The notes under the pieces are model-generated. The model saw only the letters and a program-made list of their open reading frames with translations. It was not told the DNA's origin and ran no database searches. DNA of 38,603 nucleotides from a virus: positions 1 to 38,603 of IMG/VR virus record IMGVR_UViG_3300045994_000259; one strand, written 5' to 3'. Position 1 is the stretch's first letter, and each line of letters opens with the position of its first letter. Of this stretch, positions 1,739-36,385 are shown in pieces. The position numbers were made by a program, and so were the translations under genes.

Positions 1739-3139
1739 TTATGCATTTCTCTTAACGTGTTCAACTTCTATAGATAAGTCAGTAGCGTTTTTAGCTACCC
1801 CTACTCTCCAGACGTTGTTTCCAGAACCTGCTGGAATAGTTGCGCTATAAGCTGAACCAGTCCAATAGTATTTCACTCCAGGAGTTGCACCAGTCAATAC
1901 TCCAGTAATTGCTGTATCGTTAGCAAGAACCTTTACAGGAGCTGCTGCAATTGCAGTTTCAAGGGCTATACCTACTGCATATCCATCACTTGACAATGAA
2001 CCAAAAGGAAGAACAGTGTTAGCAGAGCTTATATAAACAAGATCTCCTTTTGTTACGCCGCCAAGACCAGCTACGTAAGAAACACCGCTTGCCCCAATAT
2101 CTACTGCAAGTTGAGCCAATGCAGCTTCAACGTTTTTAGTAGTATAGTAACCAAGAGTGTCAACGATAGGCATTGCTGCTGCTTTTACTTGTCCAGCTCC
2201 AGTTCCAAAATCAATCATTGCTGACTTGATACCAGATGCTTTTACATTTAAAGCATCAGTTGTAATTTCAAGAGAAGCACCATCTACGTTTACTGCCAAG
2301 GCTCCAGAAGATAGGCTTAATCCGTTACCAGCTGCAGATGAATCTAATCTAATATCTAGACCTGATTTAACTAAACCAAGGCTAGCAGTAGTTGCTTCAA
2401 AGATCTTAGGAACTAATACGGTTCCATTATATTGGTAAACTAATGAAGCTTCATCATCTACAGAGATAAACTCATTAACTAGCAATGCTCTGAACGTGTA
2501 CGATGATGCTCCATAAATAGCTATTGAATTATCGTGTCCAATAAATACACCCGACAATGCTCCTAGTGTACCATCGATTAGCACGATATCACCTGTAACT
2601 GGAGTCAATGGTGGTGTTGCTAATCTAGTCTTAGCATTTTGCCAGTTTGTGCCAATATGTGCAGCAACGATAGCATCGTCAACGTATTGCTTGTGAACAA
2701 GTTGAGCCGCTGTTGAAATTGACAATGCAGATGAGTATGACTGAACGGCTGAGAAATTTCTTCCACCAGCTAATAAAGGGAATGCTGTATGGGCAGTTGA
2801 AGCTGCTGCATCTGATAGACCATTGTGAGTTAATCCTGACTCAATCCCTGCTATATCCAATAATGAAACTGGAATTACCCCAGTAGCTCCAGTTTTAATT
2901 GGCTTACCAGCATCAGCAGCTCCAGCAGAAGCAGCGATAAATTCTGTTTCTTGGAAGTATCTTAGATCATGTACGTGCTCATTAGCTGCGTCTGCGCCAT
3001 CGACTAAGTGAGCTATTTTAGCGTCAGTTAATTCCTTAGTTGAAGTAAGGAATGAAAGCATTTTAATACTATCAGCTGCTTCACTGTGTTCTTGGTCAAA
3101 ACCATTTGCGTTTTTGTAGATGACTTTAATCTGTGCCAT
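1739..3139 (-). CDS. Large virion fibre/decoration protein, 466 aa
   Basis: The 466-residue protein is Ala/Ser/Gly/Thr-rich with few Cys. Residues 1-80 look alpha-helical and acidic. The middle has fibre-like repeats (LVHKQYVDDAIVAAHIG, typical of phage fibre shafts), then SLGLVKSGLDIRLD and SGALAVNVD, beta-helix style modules common in tail fibres. The C-terminal ~100 residues (GGVTKGDLVYISSAN onward) resemble the small beta domain seen in the 145-residue protein at 3511-3948. The start is clear: GGAGG 6 bases before ATG. A terminator follows directly. A structural role is well supported by composition and place; whether it is a tail fibre, head fibre or decoration protein is open. Confidence 0.75.
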   Translation of the reverse strand: MAQIKVIYKNANGFDQEHSEAADSIKMLSFLTSTKELTDAKIAHLVDGADAANEHVHDLRYFQETEFIAASAGAADAGKPIKTGATGVIPVSLLDIAGIESGLTHNGLSDAAASTAHTAFPLLAGGRNFSAVQSYSSALSISTAAQLVHKQYVDDAIVAAHIGTNWQNAKTRLATPPLTPVTGDIVLIDGTLGALSGVFIGHDNSIAIYGASSYTFRALLVNEFISVDDEASLVYQYNGTVLVPKIFEATTASLGLVKSGLDIRLDSSAAGNGLSLSSGALAVNVDGASLEITTDALNVKASGIKSAMIDFGTGAGQVKAAAMPIVDTLGYYTTKNVEAALAQLAVDIGASGVSYVAGLGGVTKGDLVYISSANTVLPFGSLSSDGYAVGIALETAIAAAPVKVLANDTAITGVLTGATPGVKYYWTGSAYSATIPAGSGNNVWRVGVAKNATDLSIEVEHVKRNA

Positions 3140-3153
3140 TCATTCCTCCGTGA

Positions 3154-3501
3154 TTACAAGATTATTTCACATGTATTGTTGTTATAGCTGAACTTTTCAT
3201 CCTTGAGTCCATGATTTTTCATTATATCACTGACAATAGCGGCATATAAAGACTTTTCTTGAGAATACTTTAGTGAACATTCTCCGACTTTATTTCTCTG
3301 TTTTTCTATTTTTTGCTCTAATAATTTAAGCTCTAAAATCATATTTGCTAGTGATTGCTCTTCAATTGCCATAAGTAGTTTAGCATTTTGAACCTGGAGC
3401 GGTCTTGTTTCTACTGCAATATGCTCATCATGAGAAAGAATATTCTTCTTTTCTTCTTCTATGACAACAGGTAAAGGTCTTTTTCTCTTAGTTACTGCCA
3501 T
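3154..3501 (-). CDS. Coiled-coil hypothetical protein, 115 aa
   Basis: This 115-residue protein has a basic N terminus (MAVTKRKRPLPVV) and a long charged, leucine-rich helix around residues 35-85 that should form a coiled coil. It has no membrane segment and no recognised family. A strong ribosome-binding site (AGGAGATATAA before ATG) fixes the start. It sits between two fibre-like virion genes, so it may be a small virion component or an assembly chaperone; this is a guess from position. Confidence 0.7.
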   Translation of the reverse strand: MAVTKRKRPLPVVIEEEKKNILSHDEHIAVETRPLQVQNAKLLMAIEEQSLANMILELKLLEQKIEKQRNKVGECSLKYSQEKSLYAAIVSDIMKNHGLKDEKFSYNNNTCEIIL

Positions 3502-5824: not shown

Positions 5825-7024
5825 TTAATTTTTGTAGAAATCCATCATATCATCAAACTCGGAATCCTCTCCTCTTTTTGAAGCCACTCTAGACACCTTA
5901 GGAGCTTTAGCTTCTAAGATCTTTGCTGATTTTAGAGCTGATCGACTTGGAATCATTTCGTCTAGGATTTCATCAACTGTAGTTTCGGGAAAATCTTGCA
6001 ACAATTTAAAGACCGTCCTTGCTCTTTCGTCTGTTGTTGGATCTGTACCGACAGTTTCAAAAACTTTTACTACTTTATCAAGTGTTGGTTTTTGCTTTGC
6101 ATACTCAACGACCTTATTAGCAGTCAAATCCTTATGTCCTGCATCTTCTAGCTCTTTAGAAAGTTCATTATATTTTACAGAGTCTAGTCCAGCATTCTTT
6201 ATGATCTCAGAATCTCTTCGCATGTCTTCCTCTCGGAGTTTAACTTGCTGATCCCGGTCATTGAATCCTTTTTCCTTATTCCGTAAATAATCATTCTCTT
6301 TCTTTGTATAAAAAGCATCTCTTTCTGTTTCAGTCATGTTAAAAAACTTGGCAAATTCAGGTAACTGATGCTCAAATACAGCTCTTTCAAATATATTACT
6401 GTTTATTCCCATTTTATCAAGCAAATTGTTCACCGCTTCCATAGGATTCTTATCCATGTATCCATTTTTATTATACTGATCCACAAGGCCAGTAAAAGAT
6501 TGCCTTAAATCTCCAATTTCTTGCTTTACATAGTCATTAAATCCTGATAACTCTCTTTTTTCTGATTCAAAAGCCTTTTTACTCTTGTCAAACTCTGTAA
6601 ATCTTCTTTGTATCTCTTGTTGTCCAGAATATGAGTTAATAATATCTTGTAAAGGAACTTCTGTTTCTACTCCATTAACTTTTACCTTTACAGTATCTGG
6701 AATAGACTTAACTTCCTCTTTCTTAACTTCAGGAACAACATCCTCCTTTACCTCTTCTTTTTCTTCTTCTTTTGGAGCTTCATTATTTAGCTCATCTGGC
6801 AATTTTGTCTTATCTTCTTTTAACTTAACTCCATTATTTGCAGCTGGAGACTCATCTTCTCCAGAACCATCATATAAATTGAACACGTCATCAATGCCTT
6901 TCATTATCACTTTTCCATCTTCAGATCCTGAAGACTGAGATCCTCCTGTTCCAATAGAGCTAGCTCCCATTGACTCAGTTGCATCTTGGCTTGCCATAGT
7001 ATTCATTACATCAGAAACACTCAT
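5825..7024 (-). CDS. Capsid scaffolding protein, 399 aa
   Basis: The 399-residue protein is highly charged and helical. Residues 1-40 are Ser/Gly-rich and disordered, ~75-110 is a Glu/Lys-rich stretch with many EEK and KEE runs, and 140-300 is a long coiled-coil-like region. The C-terminal ~40 residues are basic then acidic (SRVASKRGEDSEFDDMMDFY), as expected of a scaffold that contacts coat. It lies between portal and coat genes, the standard slot for scaffold. A clean AAGGAGTT ribosome-binding site precedes ATG. No protease motif is visible, so the scaffold is probably expelled rather than digested; that last point is inference. Confidence 0.87.
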   Translation of the reverse strand: MSVSDVMNTMASQDATESMGASSIGTGGSQSSGSEDGKVIMKGIDDVFNLYDGSGEDESPAANNGVKLKEDKTKLPDELNNEAPKEEEKEEVKEDVVPEVKKEEVKSIPDTVKVKVNGVETEVPLQDIINSYSGQQEIQRRFTEFDKSKKAFESEKRELSGFNDYVKQEIGDLRQSFTGLVDQYNKNGYMDKNPMEAVNNLLDKMGINSNIFERAVFEHQLPEFAKFFNMTETERDAFYTKKENDYLRNKEKGFNDRDQQVKLREEDMRRDSEIIKNAGLDSVKYNELSKELEDAGHKDLTANKVVEYAKQKPTLDKVVKVFETVGTDPTTDERARTVFKLLQDFPETTVDEILDEMIPSRSALKSAKILEAKAPKVSRVASKRGEDSEFDDMMDFYKN

Positions 7025-9116: not shown

Positions 9117-9331
9117 ACCATAAATCCTTCACCCATATCAGGTCCAAATCCTTCCATAAATTCTTTATTGACTTTAGGAGAAACTTCAGGAGCATTCATT
9201 GGAACAAATTCAACCTTGTGAGTGCTTTTCTTAAACGCCTTAATTTCTACTAAAGTGTATAGTGAAATACAAATAGCTGGCAAGCTAATCAATATCGCTA
9301 TCACCGAACAACTGATTATCAAGATCTCCAT
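9113..9331 (-). CDS. Small single-pass membrane protein overlapping terL, 72 aa
   Basis: The 72-residue protein starts MEILIISCSVIAILISLP, giving one strong membrane segment at about residues 3-30, then a basic and Pro-containing cytoplasmic-type tail. An AAGGAG ribosome-binding site lies 7 bases before its ATG, inside the terL coding region. The first 47 bases overlap the end of terL, and its stop overlaps the portal start. I do not recognise the family. It could be a holin-like or head-assembly membrane protein; the site between terL and portal favours a conserved morphogenesis accessory. Function not established. Confidence 0.75.
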   Translation of the reverse strand: MEILIISCSVIAILISLPAICISLYTLVEIKAFKKSTHKVEFVPMNAPEVSPKVNKEFMEGFGPDMGEGFMV

Positions 9332-10763
9332 ACATACTCTCCTTATCGTTCATGCTATAATCGTTACTTCTTCTAAATCCTCTTCTATCTGGAAACTGCT
9401 CATGCTCTGTTAACGGCTCTGCGTCCTCCACTCGATAATAGTTAGCAGCATTAAGTACATACCTAAGAGTATCAATCGCATGATCGTTCTCTTTCGGTAT
9501 TCTTCCTTTATCATCTGTTGAATGCTTCTCCATCTCCCAAAATAAACCAGCATCTTTTTGTACACATCTCTCTGACATAAAAAATAATCCATCCTTTAAA
9601 AGGATATCTTTTATCAACGATAACTTATTCTCTTTATTCTTTAAGTCCTTTGTGCATGGACTTAGAGTTATCATATCTGAATATTCCGGAGACTGAGCTT
9701 CATTAGCAAACCAAGTAGCAGCATAGTCATATACACAATGCCAACTTTCTTGGTGTGGCATAATATCTTTCATTTTACTAACTGCTGTAGGAATAATATT
9801 ATCAACCCGACAGTCAGCAAGTTTAGTAGCATATATTTGATCAAGGACAAAGATCTGCTTCGAATAACGATTAATAGCAACAGCAAGAAAGGCAAAGCAC
9901 TTAGCTGATCCAGGGTCAAATCCACCATAAAAATCCCACTGTTTAGGATAAATTCCTATTACCCTCATCATATCTTCATAAGATCTATAATGCTTTAAAT
10001 AGCTCAACATTGGAAATATATTATTACCTGCTGCCCTTACTCTCATGGCAAGATATTCCTTCTGCCACTTCCAATATTCTCCCTTCTCTCTTAACTCATT
10101 TTCCTTACGTTCAAAAAACTCTTTACTGATATGAGGATTAGTCATGCTTGGCATGCATATATGAAATCCAACCGGACTTCGTAACGCCTCATCAGCAATA
10201 CTACACCACCTGTCAAAACTATCCTCGGATGCATCTGGAGGTGTACCAATTATCATTAATGGAGCATCAGTAATACCAAGGTTAGGCTCAAATCCATCAT
10301 GGAAATTAGGATTATGATCCTTAAACTCGTCATAAACAACGAGTCCTGTAGCGCTATATCCACGACCTTTCTCATAATTGTCGGCACCATCACACTTAAT
10401 AAAAGAACCATTTCGAAAGCTGACACGAAAGTCTGAGTTATTAACCGTAATTCCATACTTATCCATCATCTTCTGTGGCAAAAAAAACGGCAACCTTCCA
10501 TTAGACCACACAAGATCTTTAATTTGATCCTTAAAAGGTGCGATATAGTACGACCAAGAGTTTGGATATAGTAGGCATGTTCTATATAGACAGTAAATAA
10601 GCATTTCTGTTTTGCCAAACTTTCTTCCGCATTCCACAAAGATTCGTTTTTTTCCTTCATAAAATAGAGATTTTCCTATAGATACTTGCCCAGAATGAGG
10701 AACCCACGTTGAATGCAAATCTGTTAATACTTGGCTATGAAATAATAACTTACTATCTTCCAT
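9285..10763 (-). CDS. terL: Terminase large subunit
   Basis: This ATPase-nuclease motor pumps DNA into the capsid. I place the start at 10763 (MEDSKLLFHS), where ATG overlaps the HNH stop; a longer start 13 codons upstream lies within the HNH gene. With this start it is 492 residues. The Walker A-like motif ECGRKFGKT is at ~44-52, Walker B LVVYDE at ~141-146, the coupling-motif region at ~170 (IIGTPPD), and the nuclease domain begins with GGFDPGS (~280-286), followed by VLDQIY and a C-terminal DHAIDTLRY that supplies further metal-binding Asp. TerS is upstream, separated by an HNH gene. A headful mechanism is plausible given the P22-like portal, but the type is not proven by sequence. Confidence 0.93.
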   Translation of the reverse strand: MEDSKLLFHSQVLTDLHSTWVPHSGQVSIGKSLFYEGKKRIFVECGRKFGKTEMLIYCLYRTCLLYPNSWSYYIAPFKDQIKDLVWSNGRLPFFLPQKMMDKYGITVNNSDFRVSFRNGSFIKCDGADNYEKGRGYSATGLVVYDEFKDHNPNFHDGFEPNLGITDAPLMIIGTPPDASEDSFDRWCSIADEALRSPVGFHICMPSMTNPHISKEFFERKENELREKGEYWKWQKEYLAMRVRAAGNNIFPMLSYLKHYRSYEDMMRVIGIYPKQWDFYGGFDPGSAKCFAFLAVAINRYSKQIFVLDQIYATKLADCRVDNIIPTAVSKMKDIMPHQESWHCVYDYAATWFANEAQSPEYSDMITLSPCTKDLKNKENKLSLIKDILLKDGLFFMSERCVQKDAGLFWEMEKHSTDDKGRIPKENDHAIDTLRYVLNAANYYRVEDAEPLTEHEQFPDRRGFRRSNDYSMNDKESMYGDLDNQLFGDSDID

Positions 10764-11193
10764 GCCATTCTCTTCTTGCTTCCATGTATGCATTGTGTGC
10801 ATCTAGTTCTGTTTTATAAAAACCTATATAATAGTTCTTATTATCTACTACTATCTGAGCTTTAAACCCTCTTTCCATTTTCTGAACACCCCTAAGAAGT
10901 TTACCCTGATTTCTTCTATTTGATGTGTTTATTTGCCTTGTAACAAATCTGCAGTTTTCTTTGCAGTAGTTACCGTCATTATCTATTCTGTCTAGCTCGA
11001 GCCCATCTTCATATTTATTAAACATATCATTATGAAAGTTTTCAAAAGATTCATTCCATTCGTTACAAACAGATATATCTCTTCCTACATAGTTGAAATA
11101 GAATTTACTTTTAGGATTATTGCATCTTTGTCTCATGCCTATCCATACTTGGTAAAATTTTGTATATCTCATTCCATGCTTAAAGTTACTCAT
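10753..11193 (-). CDS. HNH homing endonuclease with AP2-like domain, 146 aa
   Basis: The 146-residue protein has the free-standing homing-endonuclease layout. It has a W-I-G-M-R-x-R-C-x-N-P-K segment at ~17-28 and CNEWNESFENF at ~43-53. The HNH core LDRIDNDGNY-x4-NCRFVTRQ-x4-SNRR spans ~67-94, with the Asp-Arg variant of the first motif usual in this subgroup. An AP2-like DNA-binding domain occupies ~99-143 (GVQKMERGFKAQI, YYIGFYKTELDAHNAYMEA). It overlaps TerS by 8 bases at its start and the TerL start by 11 bases at its end. It looks intact. It is most likely selfish, though an HNH beside terminase can assist packaging cleavage in some phages; this AP2 type argues for homing. Confidence 0.9.
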   Translation of the reverse strand: MSNFKHGMRYTKFYQVWIGMRQRCNNPKSKFYFNYVGRDISVCNEWNESFENFHNDMFNKYEDGLELDRIDNDGNYCKENCRFVTRQINTSNRRNQGKLLRGVQKMERGFKAQIVVDNKNYYIGFYKTELDAHNAYMEARREWHGR

Positions 11194-11728
11194 GATTCTT
11201 CTTCGATAACCAAGGAAGTGTTTCCGTAAACTCTACCTCAACAGCTTCTTTTGCGAAAGGGTCACTAGCTAAAATTTCCCTCGCCTCCGCCCTAGATAAA
11301 CCGATGTGCTCAATAGTCTCAGTAGCAAGCCCAGACTCAAGGCGCACCATTTTGTCCATTCCAACAACTATAGTTGCAATCTTGTTCATCTCATCTACTG
11401 TAAGTTCCTTCCCATTGTTAACTTCAACTTGAAGATTCATTAACGACTTGTTAAGGATAGAAAGTGCTACTCCAGCTGTCTGATCAAATACTGCTGCTTT
11501 ATCAAATAAGAATGCTGATATTGCAGTTGATGACATATTCTTCTTTATCTGGAATAAACATGTAGGATCTTTCCCTGTGCCATCCTCTCCAAATATAAAG
11601 AATCTTATCGTATCAATGTCTATATTAGTTCTTATCTCAATATCAGTAGGTTCAAAATTACCAAAATACATCCAACGAATACTCTCACGCTGCTTCTTTG
11701 TTAATTTCTGGATTACAAGTTCAGACAT
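11186..11728 (-). CDS. terS: Putative terminase small subunit, 180 aa
   Basis: The 180-residue protein lies in the terminase position, one gene upstream of terL. The N terminus (LTKKQRESIRWMYFGNFEPTDIEIR onward) reads as a helix-turn-helix like those of small terminases that recognise the packaging site; the middle (~90-140) is a helical oligomerisation-like region with TVDEMNKIATIVVGMDKMVRL. The C terminus is acidic (EILASDPFAKEAVEVEFTET) and would be the TerL/portal contact. Its ATG overlaps the stop of the 85-residue gene as TAATG. The call depends mostly on position and the N-terminal HTH. Confidence 0.78.
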   Translation of the reverse strand: MSELVIQKLTKKQRESIRWMYFGNFEPTDIEIRTNIDIDTIRFFIFGEDGTGKDPTCLFQIKKNMSSTAISAFLFDKAAVFDQTAGVALSILNKSLMNLQVEVNNGKELTVDEMNKIATIVVGMDKMVRLESGLATETIEHIGLSRAEAREILASDPFAKEAVEVEFTETLPWLSKKNHE

Positions 11729-11985
11729 TATTTGCGCTTCTTGGTAGCGATATTAGGATTCGAACCTAAGATCGTAGAATCAAAATCTACTGACTTACCA
11801 CTTGTCGATATCGCTGTATATTCTACTACTGACTTTAATACTGATATTGGCTTTTTACTTAGCATGCCCTGAATAGATTCTCTAAGCTGCTTAGTTATCT
11901 CTTGATCTGCTAATGATTGTATATATGCTAATGATGCTTCTGGATGATTCTTTTGTATCTGTGATAATAGATCCGGTTTATCCAT
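11728..11985 (-). CDS. Small protein gene whose 3' third contains a tRNA gene, 85 aa
   Basis: The 85-residue product is helical and charged in its first ~55 residues (MDKPDLLSQIQKNHPEASLA). The last ~30 residues are encoded by the tRNA-Gln sequence at 11742-11815 on the same strand and are therefore constrained by RNA rather than protein function. A strong ribosome-binding site (TTTAGGAGTCCTT before ATG) supports translation, and the stop is coupled to TerS by TAATG. No family recognised. The protein may be real, or may be a carrier reading frame that keeps ribosomes running into TerS. Processing of the tRNA would cut this message. Confidence 0.6.
   Translation of the reverse strand: MDKPDLLSQIQKNHPEASLAYIQSLADQEITKQLRESIQGMLSKKPISVLKSVVEYTAISTSGKSVDFDSTILGSNPNIATKKRK
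11742..11815 (-). tRNA. tRNA-Gln (anticodon UUG), CCA encoded
   Basis: The minus strand folds into a full cloverleaf. The acceptor stem AGCGATA/TATCGCT pairs perfectly over 7 bp. The D arm is GAC/GTC with loop AAGTGGTAA. The anticodon stem GTAGA/TCTAC is perfect, with loop TTTTGAT giving anticodon TTG. The variable loop is GATC. The T arm TTAGG/CCTAA encloses TTCGAAT. The discriminator is A and CCA is encoded. Total 74 nt. The D loop and anticodon loop match bacterial tRNA-Gln. It lies wholly inside the 85-residue coding region, on the same strand, just upstream of TerS. It should read CAA codons, which are frequent in this AT-rich genome. Confidence 0.95.
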
Positions 11986-12006: not shown

Positions 12007-12339
12007 CTACTGTAATAAAATAAACTTCATATTGTCAAACTGTTCCTCACCTCTTATCAATAAATAAATTCCACATTGCTTATCTATCATCTTCTGAAAG
12101 TTCTTCTGATGTTTAGATTGTACTGATGTAGTACCAGTCTTAATTTCAATGGCGGTAAATATACCTTTATTACTAATCCCTATGATGTCACTAGAACCTA
12201 CTAACCCATATCTCTGAAAGTGACCATTGGAAGTCCTTACAGCACCAGTTGGATTACTCCAATACTTACCTAGATTATTGCTGCTTAGATAGGTTAGGGT
12301 CTTATTAACTAACTCGTTGTGTTGCTTGTAATCACTCAT
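12007..12339 (-). CDS. VRR-NUC family nuclease, 110 aa
   Basis: At 110 residues this is a stand-alone VRR-NUC domain of the PD-(D/E)XK superfamily. Visible motifs are GSSDIIGI (catalytic D51), FTAIEIKTG (E65, K67) and QSKHQKNF (Q78), in the order and spacing of the family. Family members are Holliday-junction or flap-type nucleases, and in phages a small one like this commonly resolves recombination or replication branches before packaging. It heads the terminase operon. I see no ribosome-binding site before ATG; a TTGACA box about 31 bases upstream makes a leaderless or near-leaderless start possible. Confidence 0.88.
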   Translation of the reverse strand: MSDYKQHNELVNKTLTYLSSNNLGKYWSNPTGAVRTSNGHFQRYGLVGSSDIIGISNKGIFTAIEIKTGTTSVQSKHQKNFQKMIDKQCGIYLLIRGEEQFDNMKFILLQ

Positions 12340-20006: not shown

Positions 20007-20357
20007 ATGTATCAAAAATGGTTAACATTAAAAGAAATTATTATACAACAGACCAAAGAGTTGCATGAGGTAGAAGCTGCTATTTGGTTAGAAGCTGAGA
20101 AGAATGGAAATTTAAATTTATTAGGTGGAAAGACTTTTGATGCTGATAATTTTAAAGTTACCATTACCCATTCAGAATCTATTAAGGTAGATCAAAAAGC
20201 AGCTGCTCTGAGACCTGACTTATTTAAGGTAAAATATGAATTTGATAAGACAGGGTATAGGCAGCTTGTTAAAACTCAAAAAGATGTAGTAGATGAATGT
20301 ATAACTATAACAAAAGCAAAACCTTCATTCAGGATAGTAAGGTTAGAAAATGAATAA
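20007..20357 (+). CDS. Hypothetical protein of the recombination operon, 116 aa
   Basis: The 116-residue product has an amphipathic N-terminal helix (MYQKWLTLKEIIIQQTKELH), a central KTFDADNFKVTITHSESIKVD beta-like part and a C-terminal helix ending KPSFRIVRLENE. I do not recognise a named function, but proteins of this shape often sit directly before Sak4-type recombinases in phages. AAGGAG lies upstream of ATG, and a strong promoter starts this operon. Its stop overlaps the broken HNH gene. Possibly a recombination accessory (inference). Confidence 0.68.
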   Translation: MYQKWLTLKEIIIQQTKELHEVEAAIWLEAEKNGNLNLLGGKTFDADNFKVTITHSESIKVDQKAAALRPDLFKVKYEFDKTGYRQLVKTQKDVVDECITITKAKPSFRIVRLENE

Positions 20358-20847
20358 AAAAATATCTCAAATGTATATTAAAGAGTATTTTAATTATTCC
20401 GATGGAGTAATGATTAGGATAAAGAATAAGTATAGATCTGATCTTATCGGAAAGCCATCCAGAACAGTTAGACCAGATGGTTACGTAAAGATAAGGGTAA
20501 ATGGATCATATTTTTATGAGCACGTATTAGTTTGGGTTTATTTTAATGGATAAATACCAGACCTTATGCAGATAGATCATATTAACTGTAATTCTACAGA
20601 TAACAAAATAGAGAATTTGAGAATGGTTATATGCCAACAAAATAGAGAGAATCAGATTAGGTCTCATAAAGATTCTTCTACTGGAAGGATAGGTGTTTCT
20701 ATGGTTAAAAACGCAAAACTTAAAAAATTTAGAGTTCAACTTAAAACAAAAAGAGAAATAATATGTAAGAACTTTTCATGTATTATTGAGGCTGAGGATT
20801 TTTATTTAAAAACAAAAAGAAAACATCATAAGTTTTCTACAATCTAG
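20350..20847 (+). pseudogene. HNH homing endonuclease split by an in-frame TAA
   Basis: Two reading frames in the same phase, 20350-20553 and 20566-20847, make one HNH protein interrupted by a single TAA at 20551-20553 in the context FNG-stop-IPDLMQIDHIN. The first part has the N-terminal NUMOD/AP2-like pattern (RPDGYVKIRVNGS, EHVLVWVYFNG); the second has the HNH core IDHINCNSTDNKIENLRMV and a basic AP2-like end. One base change could restore it. Re-initiation at ATG 20566 might give a fragment. It sits between recombination genes and is probably a decaying selfish insertion. Confidence 0.8.
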
Positions 20848-35079: not shown

Positions 35080-35835
35080 TTAATAAGTTCCTATGCAGTA
35101 AAGAGTTCCCCAAGAATTAGGCGTTAGTGCAGTACTATATAGTACAGTTAAAAACTGAACCGAAGAACATACTGTACAGTTTATAGGTCCTCTGATCCAT
35201 CCATCTCCTGAGCTTGATTCCGATGTTCCTACACATTTTAATTTATTATAAGTTTTTGATGTCTGAAGTACATATATACCAGTAGAAGATCCGTGATAAA
35301 CATTTGCCTCTGCGCCAATCCCATCAGAATAAGGGCATATTATACCATTTGCTGAAGCACATGCGGAAGTCGCTGATGCACCAAAACTAATACTAAAGGT
35401 ATCTACGTTTCCTGAGTATCCAGGAACAACAGGAGTGCCAGCGGTAGTGGATGGATTAACCCATGTGCTTCCGTTATACGTACTTAGTAAATTAAGACTT
35501 GTATCGTACACGACCATACCGGAAGCAGCAGGGGAAATAGCTAGTTTTTGAGAAGTGGTCATCCGTGGAGGCAAAAACGCTTTAGTTGTTGACTGAAAAT
35601 CTGCAATACTATTAGTAGTAAGCGACCCACCTAGCACTAGAGATGTTCCACTAGCAACACCTATCCCATCTATTGTTAAAGATGATCCAGTTCGTGTTCC
35701 TGTGAAAGATCCATAGTTAGTTATAAAAGTGGTTATATTGCTGATATCTCCAGAAACTCTAGAAGAAGTAGGAGGAAGCGATGCATTGGCATTTAAGCTA
35801 CATAATGACAAAAATAGTGTTATTTTTCTAAACAT
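35080..35835 (-). CDS. Secreted-looking fibre-like protein with Sec signal, 251 aa
   Basis: ATG at 35835 follows an excellent AGGAGAGAAT site. Residues 1-18 (MFRKITLFLSLCSLNANA) form a Sec-type signal peptide with A-N-A cleavage before Ser19. The mature part opens with fibre-like repeats (TIDGIGVASGTSLVLGGSLT) and AFLPPRMTTSQKLAISPAAS-GMVVYD, a module common in bacterial and phage fibre proteins. The last ~95 residues hold six Cys, suggesting disulphides made in the periplasm. This combination is odd for a virion part built in the cytoplasm. It may be exported to the cell surface, or derived from a host adhesin. A GIY-YIG gene overlaps its start. Confidence 0.75.
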   Translation of the reverse strand: MFRKITLFLSLCSLNANASLPPTSSRVSGDISNITTFITNYGSFTGTRTGSSLTIDGIGVASGTSLVLGGSLTTNSIADFQSTTKAFLPPRMTTSQKLAISPAASGMVVYDTSLNLLSTYNGSTWVNPSTTAGTPVVPGYSGNVDTFSISFGASATSACASANGIICPYSDGIGAEANVYHGSSTGIYVLQTSKTYNKLKCVGTSESSSGDGWIRGPINCTVCSSVQFLTVLYSTALTPNSWGTLYCIGTY

Positions 35836-36385
35836 ATTCTCTCCTAAAAACATAACCGTTAGTTTGCTTATAAGTACCAAGTAGAACTTTCTTAATTGAA
35901 ACTCTATGACACCCAGTTATTCTTTCGCAATCTCTTAGTGATTCATAGATAATTCCATTTTGGTCAATTAGTTGAATTTTTCTTTTCTCATTGTACCCTG
36001 TAAGTCTCTCTCTTTCTATCCCTACTTCACACTGTATCTTCCTAGTTTTCGCCATTTTTTCCTGACGAGGAATTAGCTTTATAGGGAGCTTCTTCGTTAA
36101 TTGTGTGTGACCAATATATGTATTTAACTCACACTGACCAAGGTTCTTATAATAATATATTATCTTATCCTCTAGACTAATCGCCTCTTTCTTTTCTAGC
36201 TCCCATACTCTTATCTTCAATATTGGCAATAGTCCTGCTTCTTTTGAGTTATTAAAAAAATCCTTGGTAGATTTTTCATCACCATTTCTATGGGCTTTAT
36301 ATCTAACTCTCACACCTCTAGACATTCCCACATATTTGACAAGCTTGCTTGTAGGACATATTAATTCATATATACAATATTTCAT
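35828..36385 (-). CDS. GIY-YIG homing endonuclease with DNA-binding tail, 185 aa
   Basis: The 185-residue protein starts with a GIY-YIG variant (CIYELI at 4-9 and KYVGMS at 17-22), then the R-containing helix RVRYKAHRNG and an acidic SLEDKIIYYY helix, the standard nuclease fold. The C-terminal ~40 residues (IQLIDQNGIIYESLRDCERI, then TGCHRVSIKKVLLG) form a NUMOD-type DNA-binding end. It appears intact and overlaps the secreted fibre gene start by 8 bases. Likely selfish and responsible for spread of the fibre locus between phages. Confidence 0.87.
   Translation of the reverse strand: MKYCIYELICPTSKLVKYVGMSRGVRVRYKAHRNGDEKSTKDFFNNSKEAGLLPILKIRVWELEKKEAISLEDKIIYYYKNLGQCELNTYIGHTQLTKKLPIKLIPRQEKMAKTRKIQCEVGIERERLTGYNEKRKIQLIDQNGIIYESLRDCERITGCHRVSIKKVLLGTYKQTNGYVFRREYV

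Follow-up and report, generated by a model that had tools for sequence, protein, structure and literature searches.

A putative tRNA-Gln gene, probably a recent gain, within the tail of a conserved gene just upstream of a phage terminase

How can a complete tRNA gene lie inside a protein-coding gene, on the same strand, in the middle of a packaging operon? This question is raised by a stretch of viral DNA of 38,603 nucleotides (IMG/VR record IMGVR_UViG_3300045994_000259, hereafter the window), in which a first-pass annotation, made from the letters alone, had read a tRNA-Gln with anticodon UUG and an encoded CCA on the minus strand, within an 85-codon gene that precedes the gene for the small terminase subunit (TerS). 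The features concerned are as follows; L003 is a close relative, introduced below.

11742..11815, minus strand: tRNA-Gln (ARAGORN, Rfam, direct reading of the sequence)
11728..11985, minus strand: 85-codon gene (open reading frame, L003 homologue, Shine-Dalgarno sequence, dN/dS, AlphaFold2)
11186..11728, minus strand: TerS-like gene (position next to the large subunit gene; 57% identical to its positional counterpart in L003)
12007..12339, minus strand: VRR-NUC/endonuclease-like gene, upstream of the 85-codon gene (79% identical in L003)
10753..11193, minus strand: free-standing HNH endonuclease gene, between the TerS and TerL genes and overlapping both
9285..10802, minus strand: terminase large subunit, TerL (PHROGs/Pfam scan, relatives)

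The tRNA reading was confirmed by two programs. ARAGORN found a single tRNA in the window, tRNA-Gln(TTG) at 11742-11815 on the minus strand, and the Rfam family RF00005 matched 11745-11815 over its full model (positions 1-71) with 62.1 bits (gathering score 29; E 2.8e-11), far beyond chance. Read directly, the sequence provides a seven-pair acceptor stem (AGCGATA/TATCGCT), an anticodon stem (GTAGA/TCTAC) closing the loop TTTTGAT with UUG at 11781-11783, a T arm (TTAGG-TTCGAAT-CCTAA), a discriminator A73, and a CCA encoded in the DNA at 11742-11744. The D stem is short, with three pairs (GAC/GTC) and a D loop containing GG; the other three stems are intact, and so are the conserved loop residues. 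RNase P would be expected to cut between 11816 and 11815. Glutamine identity depends in some bacteria on U1-A72 and G73, and charging of the predicted tRNA with glutamine is not certain, because its first pair is A1-U72 and its discriminator A73; the three other distinct phage tRNA-Gln compared all begin with U. The closest phage tRNA-Gln match is 84% identical over 60 positions. In computed folds, the isolated tRNA sequence adopts a cloverleaf-like structure, and the minimum-energy structure of a 171 nt mRNA context breaks the acceptor stem.

The tRNA lies wholly within the 85-codon gene: it begins at the third base of codon 57 and ends with the first base of codon 82. Of the three frames across it, only that of the gene contains no stop. 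Taken alone, this open frame is weak evidence for a gene, since roughly one in three frames across a tRNA lacks a stop: 48 of 147 frames (33%) from the 49 tRNAs of the fetched loci, and likewise 33% of random 74-mers drawn from the minus strand of the window. The evidence that the 85-codon gene is a genuine protein gene, independent of the tRNA, comes from a relative. L003 keeps a homologue of 76 residues (357-587) with the same start (MDKPDLLS) and the same neighbours, and has no tRNA. The two proteins share 37 of 57 residues in their core, and the Shine-Dalgarno sequence GGAGTC is conserved between the genes; in the window, TTTAGGAG stands shortly upstream of the ATG. Over codons 1-57, this single window/L003 pair gave dN 0.39, dS 1.15 and a dN/dS of about 0.34, which indicates purifying selection on the core. 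The protein matched nothing in PHROGs, Pfam or the phage records searched, and its core showed no significant distant homology to the small open reading frames near TerL in L004 and L006-L009. The only other match to it, L001, was discarded as a homologue, as only the tRNA-derived residues align, at an unrelated tRNA-Lys.

The conservation is confined to codons 1-56/57 (11815-11985). Tyr56 is the last residue with similarity to L003; it coincides with the 5' edge of the tRNA, and no meaningful similarity was found past it, so that the tail is not conserved as protein. An AlphaFold2 model, built from two sequences only, places helices at residues 6-13, 19-44 and 48-62, with pLDDT below 50 at residues 68-71 and 73-85. 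The break in similarity and the low pLDDT beyond the helices suggest that the tRNA-encoded tail is probably a tolerated, unstructured extension. The comparison of frame and fold in relatives, proposed by the first-pass annotation, gave one of the outcomes that this annotation had listed as refuting: L003 retains the protein, which upholds the gene, and lacks the cloverleaf, which speaks against a shared dual-coding element. The L003 tail was also considered as a decayed tRNA and rejected, since 33% of shuffled sequences align equally well and Rfam returned no tRNA match.

The 85-codon gene is tightly joined to the next gene. Its stop, TAA at 11728-11730, shares an A with the ATG of the TerS-like gene (TAATG), and in L003 the corresponding overlap is ATGA. 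The downstream protein has no PHROG or Pfam match and owes its name to its location beside TerL. Pairing energies with the anti-Shine-Dalgarno, estimated from simple duplexes with a 16S tail of E. coli type, which may differ from that of the host, were -6.8 kcal/mol for the 85-codon gene and -0.8 for TerS, compared with -6.1 and -3.3, respectively, in L003. The strong ribosome-binding site and the TAATG junction to TerS were therefore both borne out around a gene that is real. Because TerS is almost devoid of a Shine-Dalgarno sequence and the 85-codon gene has a strong one, ribosomes likely finish the 85-codon gene across the tRNA and re-initiate on TerS, which makes crossing, one of two possibilities raised at first pass, the favoured route, and we infer that TerS translation is coupled to that of the 85-codon gene.

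Is the tRNA an ancestral part of this operon? A search of IMG/VR with TerL retrieved two close relatives, L003 (79%) and L004 (75%), and more distant ones, L005-L016 (27-51% identical, L011 and L012 looking nearly identical to each other); none was found in genome_contigs. L003 shares the order of the window, VRR-NUC gene, homologue of the 85-codon gene, TerS and TerL, with no tRNA in its packaging locus. L005 begins inside TerL and was left out of the judgement; in none of the judgeable loci from L003 to L016 does a tRNA stand directly upstream of TerL, which argues that the tRNA-Gln is probably a recent gain in the lineage of the window. It is best read from these comparisons as an addition to an existing gene, rather than as an ancestral dual-coding element, the direction of change resting on the more distant relatives because the 85-codon gene has one close homologue only. 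In L010, a tRNA-Asn(GTT) at 6276-6352 lies between open reading frames, upstream of the TerL match by 1.7 kb; tRNAs thus arise near packaging genes in other members of the wider group. In L013, a tRNA-Ala lies upstream of the TerL match by about 4.8 kb, on the opposite strand.

Several routes of acquisition were explored. A search with the acceptor and D-arm pattern for a bacterial source gave one match, L019, which is not a tRNA, and the same pattern found no source in viral contigs. A role as integrase attachment site was set aside: no integrase was found among the window proteins scanned against PHROGs and Pfam (part of the open reading frames), and the tRNA is complete and present in one copy in the window. 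Nor do glutamine-rich late genes provide a reason for the tRNA, with an ordinary 40.9 Gln codons per 1000 on the minus strand vs 31.8 on the plus strand. L003 and L004 also lack the HNH endonuclease gene at this place between TerS and TerL, indicating that this packaging stretch took up more than one insert.

Other features of these loci were recorded along the way. Alignment with relatives suggests that TerL probably starts at the ATG at 10763 rather than at 10802. On the plus strand, two adjacent open reading frames (20350-20553 and 20566-20847) match positions 105-170 and 176-262 of phrog_99, as if a single HNH endonuclease gene had been split by a stop or a frameshift. Among the late genes, a 185-residue protein (35828-36385, minus strand) starting with MKYCIYELICPTSKLVKYVGMSRG looks, by eye, like a GIY-YIG endonuclease. 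L004 has no full TerS; a 126-residue open reading frame (140-520) precedes TerL, and the EEARILAEDPFAQAIEV...VPWK of its C terminus is similar to the TerS C terminus. A fusion of the 85-residue protein with TerS was suggested there by eye and dropped, as BLASTP gave no support. The first 75 bases of L004 seem to repeat about 305-378 in inverted orientation, and its assembly may be faulty. In L008 (TerL 45% identical), the order over 2202-3180 is VRR-NUC gene, TerS, a 146-residue open reading frame and TerL, the small protein following TerS and not preceding it as in the window.

Taken together, these results favour, with reasonable though far from full confidence, the following account. In the lineage of the window, a tRNA-Gln(UUG) would have been gained in the variable, probably unstructured tail of a small conserved gene just upstream of terS, and the frame would have stayed open, so that ribosomes loaded at the strong Shine-Dalgarno sequence could read through the tRNA to TAATG and re-initiate there on TerS, itself without a good Shine-Dalgarno sequence. 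From spacing and orientation, we infer one common transcript for the VRR-NUC gene, the 85-codon gene and TerS; promoter-like matches in a promoter scan were not above chance level. Moving ribosomes would hold the cloverleaf open, and copies that are untranslated, or not yet translated, could fold and be excised by host RNase P and 3'-processing enzymes, supplementing the glutamine tRNA pool. A cut before 11815 would end the 85-codon gene after 170 nt, as a nonstop fragment, and the 3' cut after 11742 would leave TerS with a leader of 13 nt. Since processing cuts the 85-codon gene away from TerS, every transcript would serve either as TerS message or as tRNA precursor, not both. Such a competition between translation and tRNA folding on one RNA is plausible as a model, and processing, charging and any effect on terminase level are predictions from the sequence.

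The most serious competitor to this account, though clearly the less probable of the two, is that the open frame is incidental: the tRNA would have landed in an unimportant gene tail, TerS would be translated independently, and some transcripts would simply be wasted. The stop-free third of tRNA frames and a tail that is poorly conserved and probably disordered fit this reading. However, TerS has nearly no Shine-Dalgarno sequence of its own, and the 85-codon gene stops exactly at the TerS start, as its homologue does in L003, where a stop within the tRNA would have left an intergenic gap. Rather unlikely, too, is a tRNA that serves no longer as such, a relic or passive cargo carried in by recombination, perhaps along with the adjacent HNH endonuclease gene. 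The HNH gene is likewise missing from L003 and L004 and the first pair A1-U72 is unusual, but intact stems and conserved loop residues (62 bits) are unexpected for a relic in a fast-diverging phage.

The other possibility raised at first pass, that tRNA maturation acts as a switch, cleavage splitting the VRR-NUC message and a nonstop fragment from the TerS message and thereby tuning terminase output, seems to us the least probable of these readings. On one transcript, cleavage necessarily parts the two portions of the message, as a matter of geometry, and the cleaved TerS message would have a weak leader, so that excision of the tRNA may regulate terminase. Against this, co-transcription is a prediction from the layout of the genes, with promoter-like matches within chance, and excision control of terminase is not a conserved feature of packaging, because the tRNA is absent from the packaging operons of the relatives that could be examined. 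A stronger form of the competition model, with dual selection on one stretch of RNA and the balance of translation and RNase P setting the ratio of tRNA to TerS, also appears improbable. We return to the gain of the tRNA in a tolerant tail, with the frame kept open, as the preferred account.

How does this arrangement compare with known systems? Phage tRNA-Gln genes as such are common, and those of Pseudomonas phage Kaya and Enterobacter phage vB_EhoM-IME523 belong to the same RNA family and isotype as that of the window. The Kaya tRNA-Gln also has the anticodon UUG and an encoded CCA, but is intergenic, whereas the window tRNA lies inside a conserved gene. Synechococcus phage S-PM2 has same-strand tRNAs fully within annotated coding sequences (S-PM2d247, S-PM2d248), as in the window; the one that was translated, however, consists almost entirely of tRNA sequence, and they look like chance frames of annotation, whereas two thirds of the window gene is not tRNA and is conserved in a relative. 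In mitochondria, tRNAs punctuate polycistronic RNAs, lying between genes or slightly overlapping their ends. There too, excision of a tRNA from a polycistronic RNA would part messages, but the window tRNA is embedded in a single frame, and its processing is a prediction. In bacteria, mixed tRNA-mRNA operons such as that of tufB yield single transcripts that hold both a tRNA and a protein-coding part and are processed by RNase P and RNase E; their tRNAs lie outside coding sequences, in contrast to the window tRNA inside one. A literal word search of open-licence text found no paper on a same-strand tRNA nested in a validated phage gene, a weak indication that none exists.

We conclude that the tRNA-Gln is a real and unusual case, best described as a gain in a dispensable gene tail, and that, unlike S-PM2 and Kaya, it combines a conserved gene around the tRNA with a tRNA-less homologue. 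Same-strand nesting of this kind is usually written off as an annotation error; here, tRNA-less L003 shows that the surrounding gene is real. The window and L003 form a clean natural pair for the competition between ribosomes and RNase P on one RNA, and bear on how small phages acquire tRNAs with their operons unbroken.
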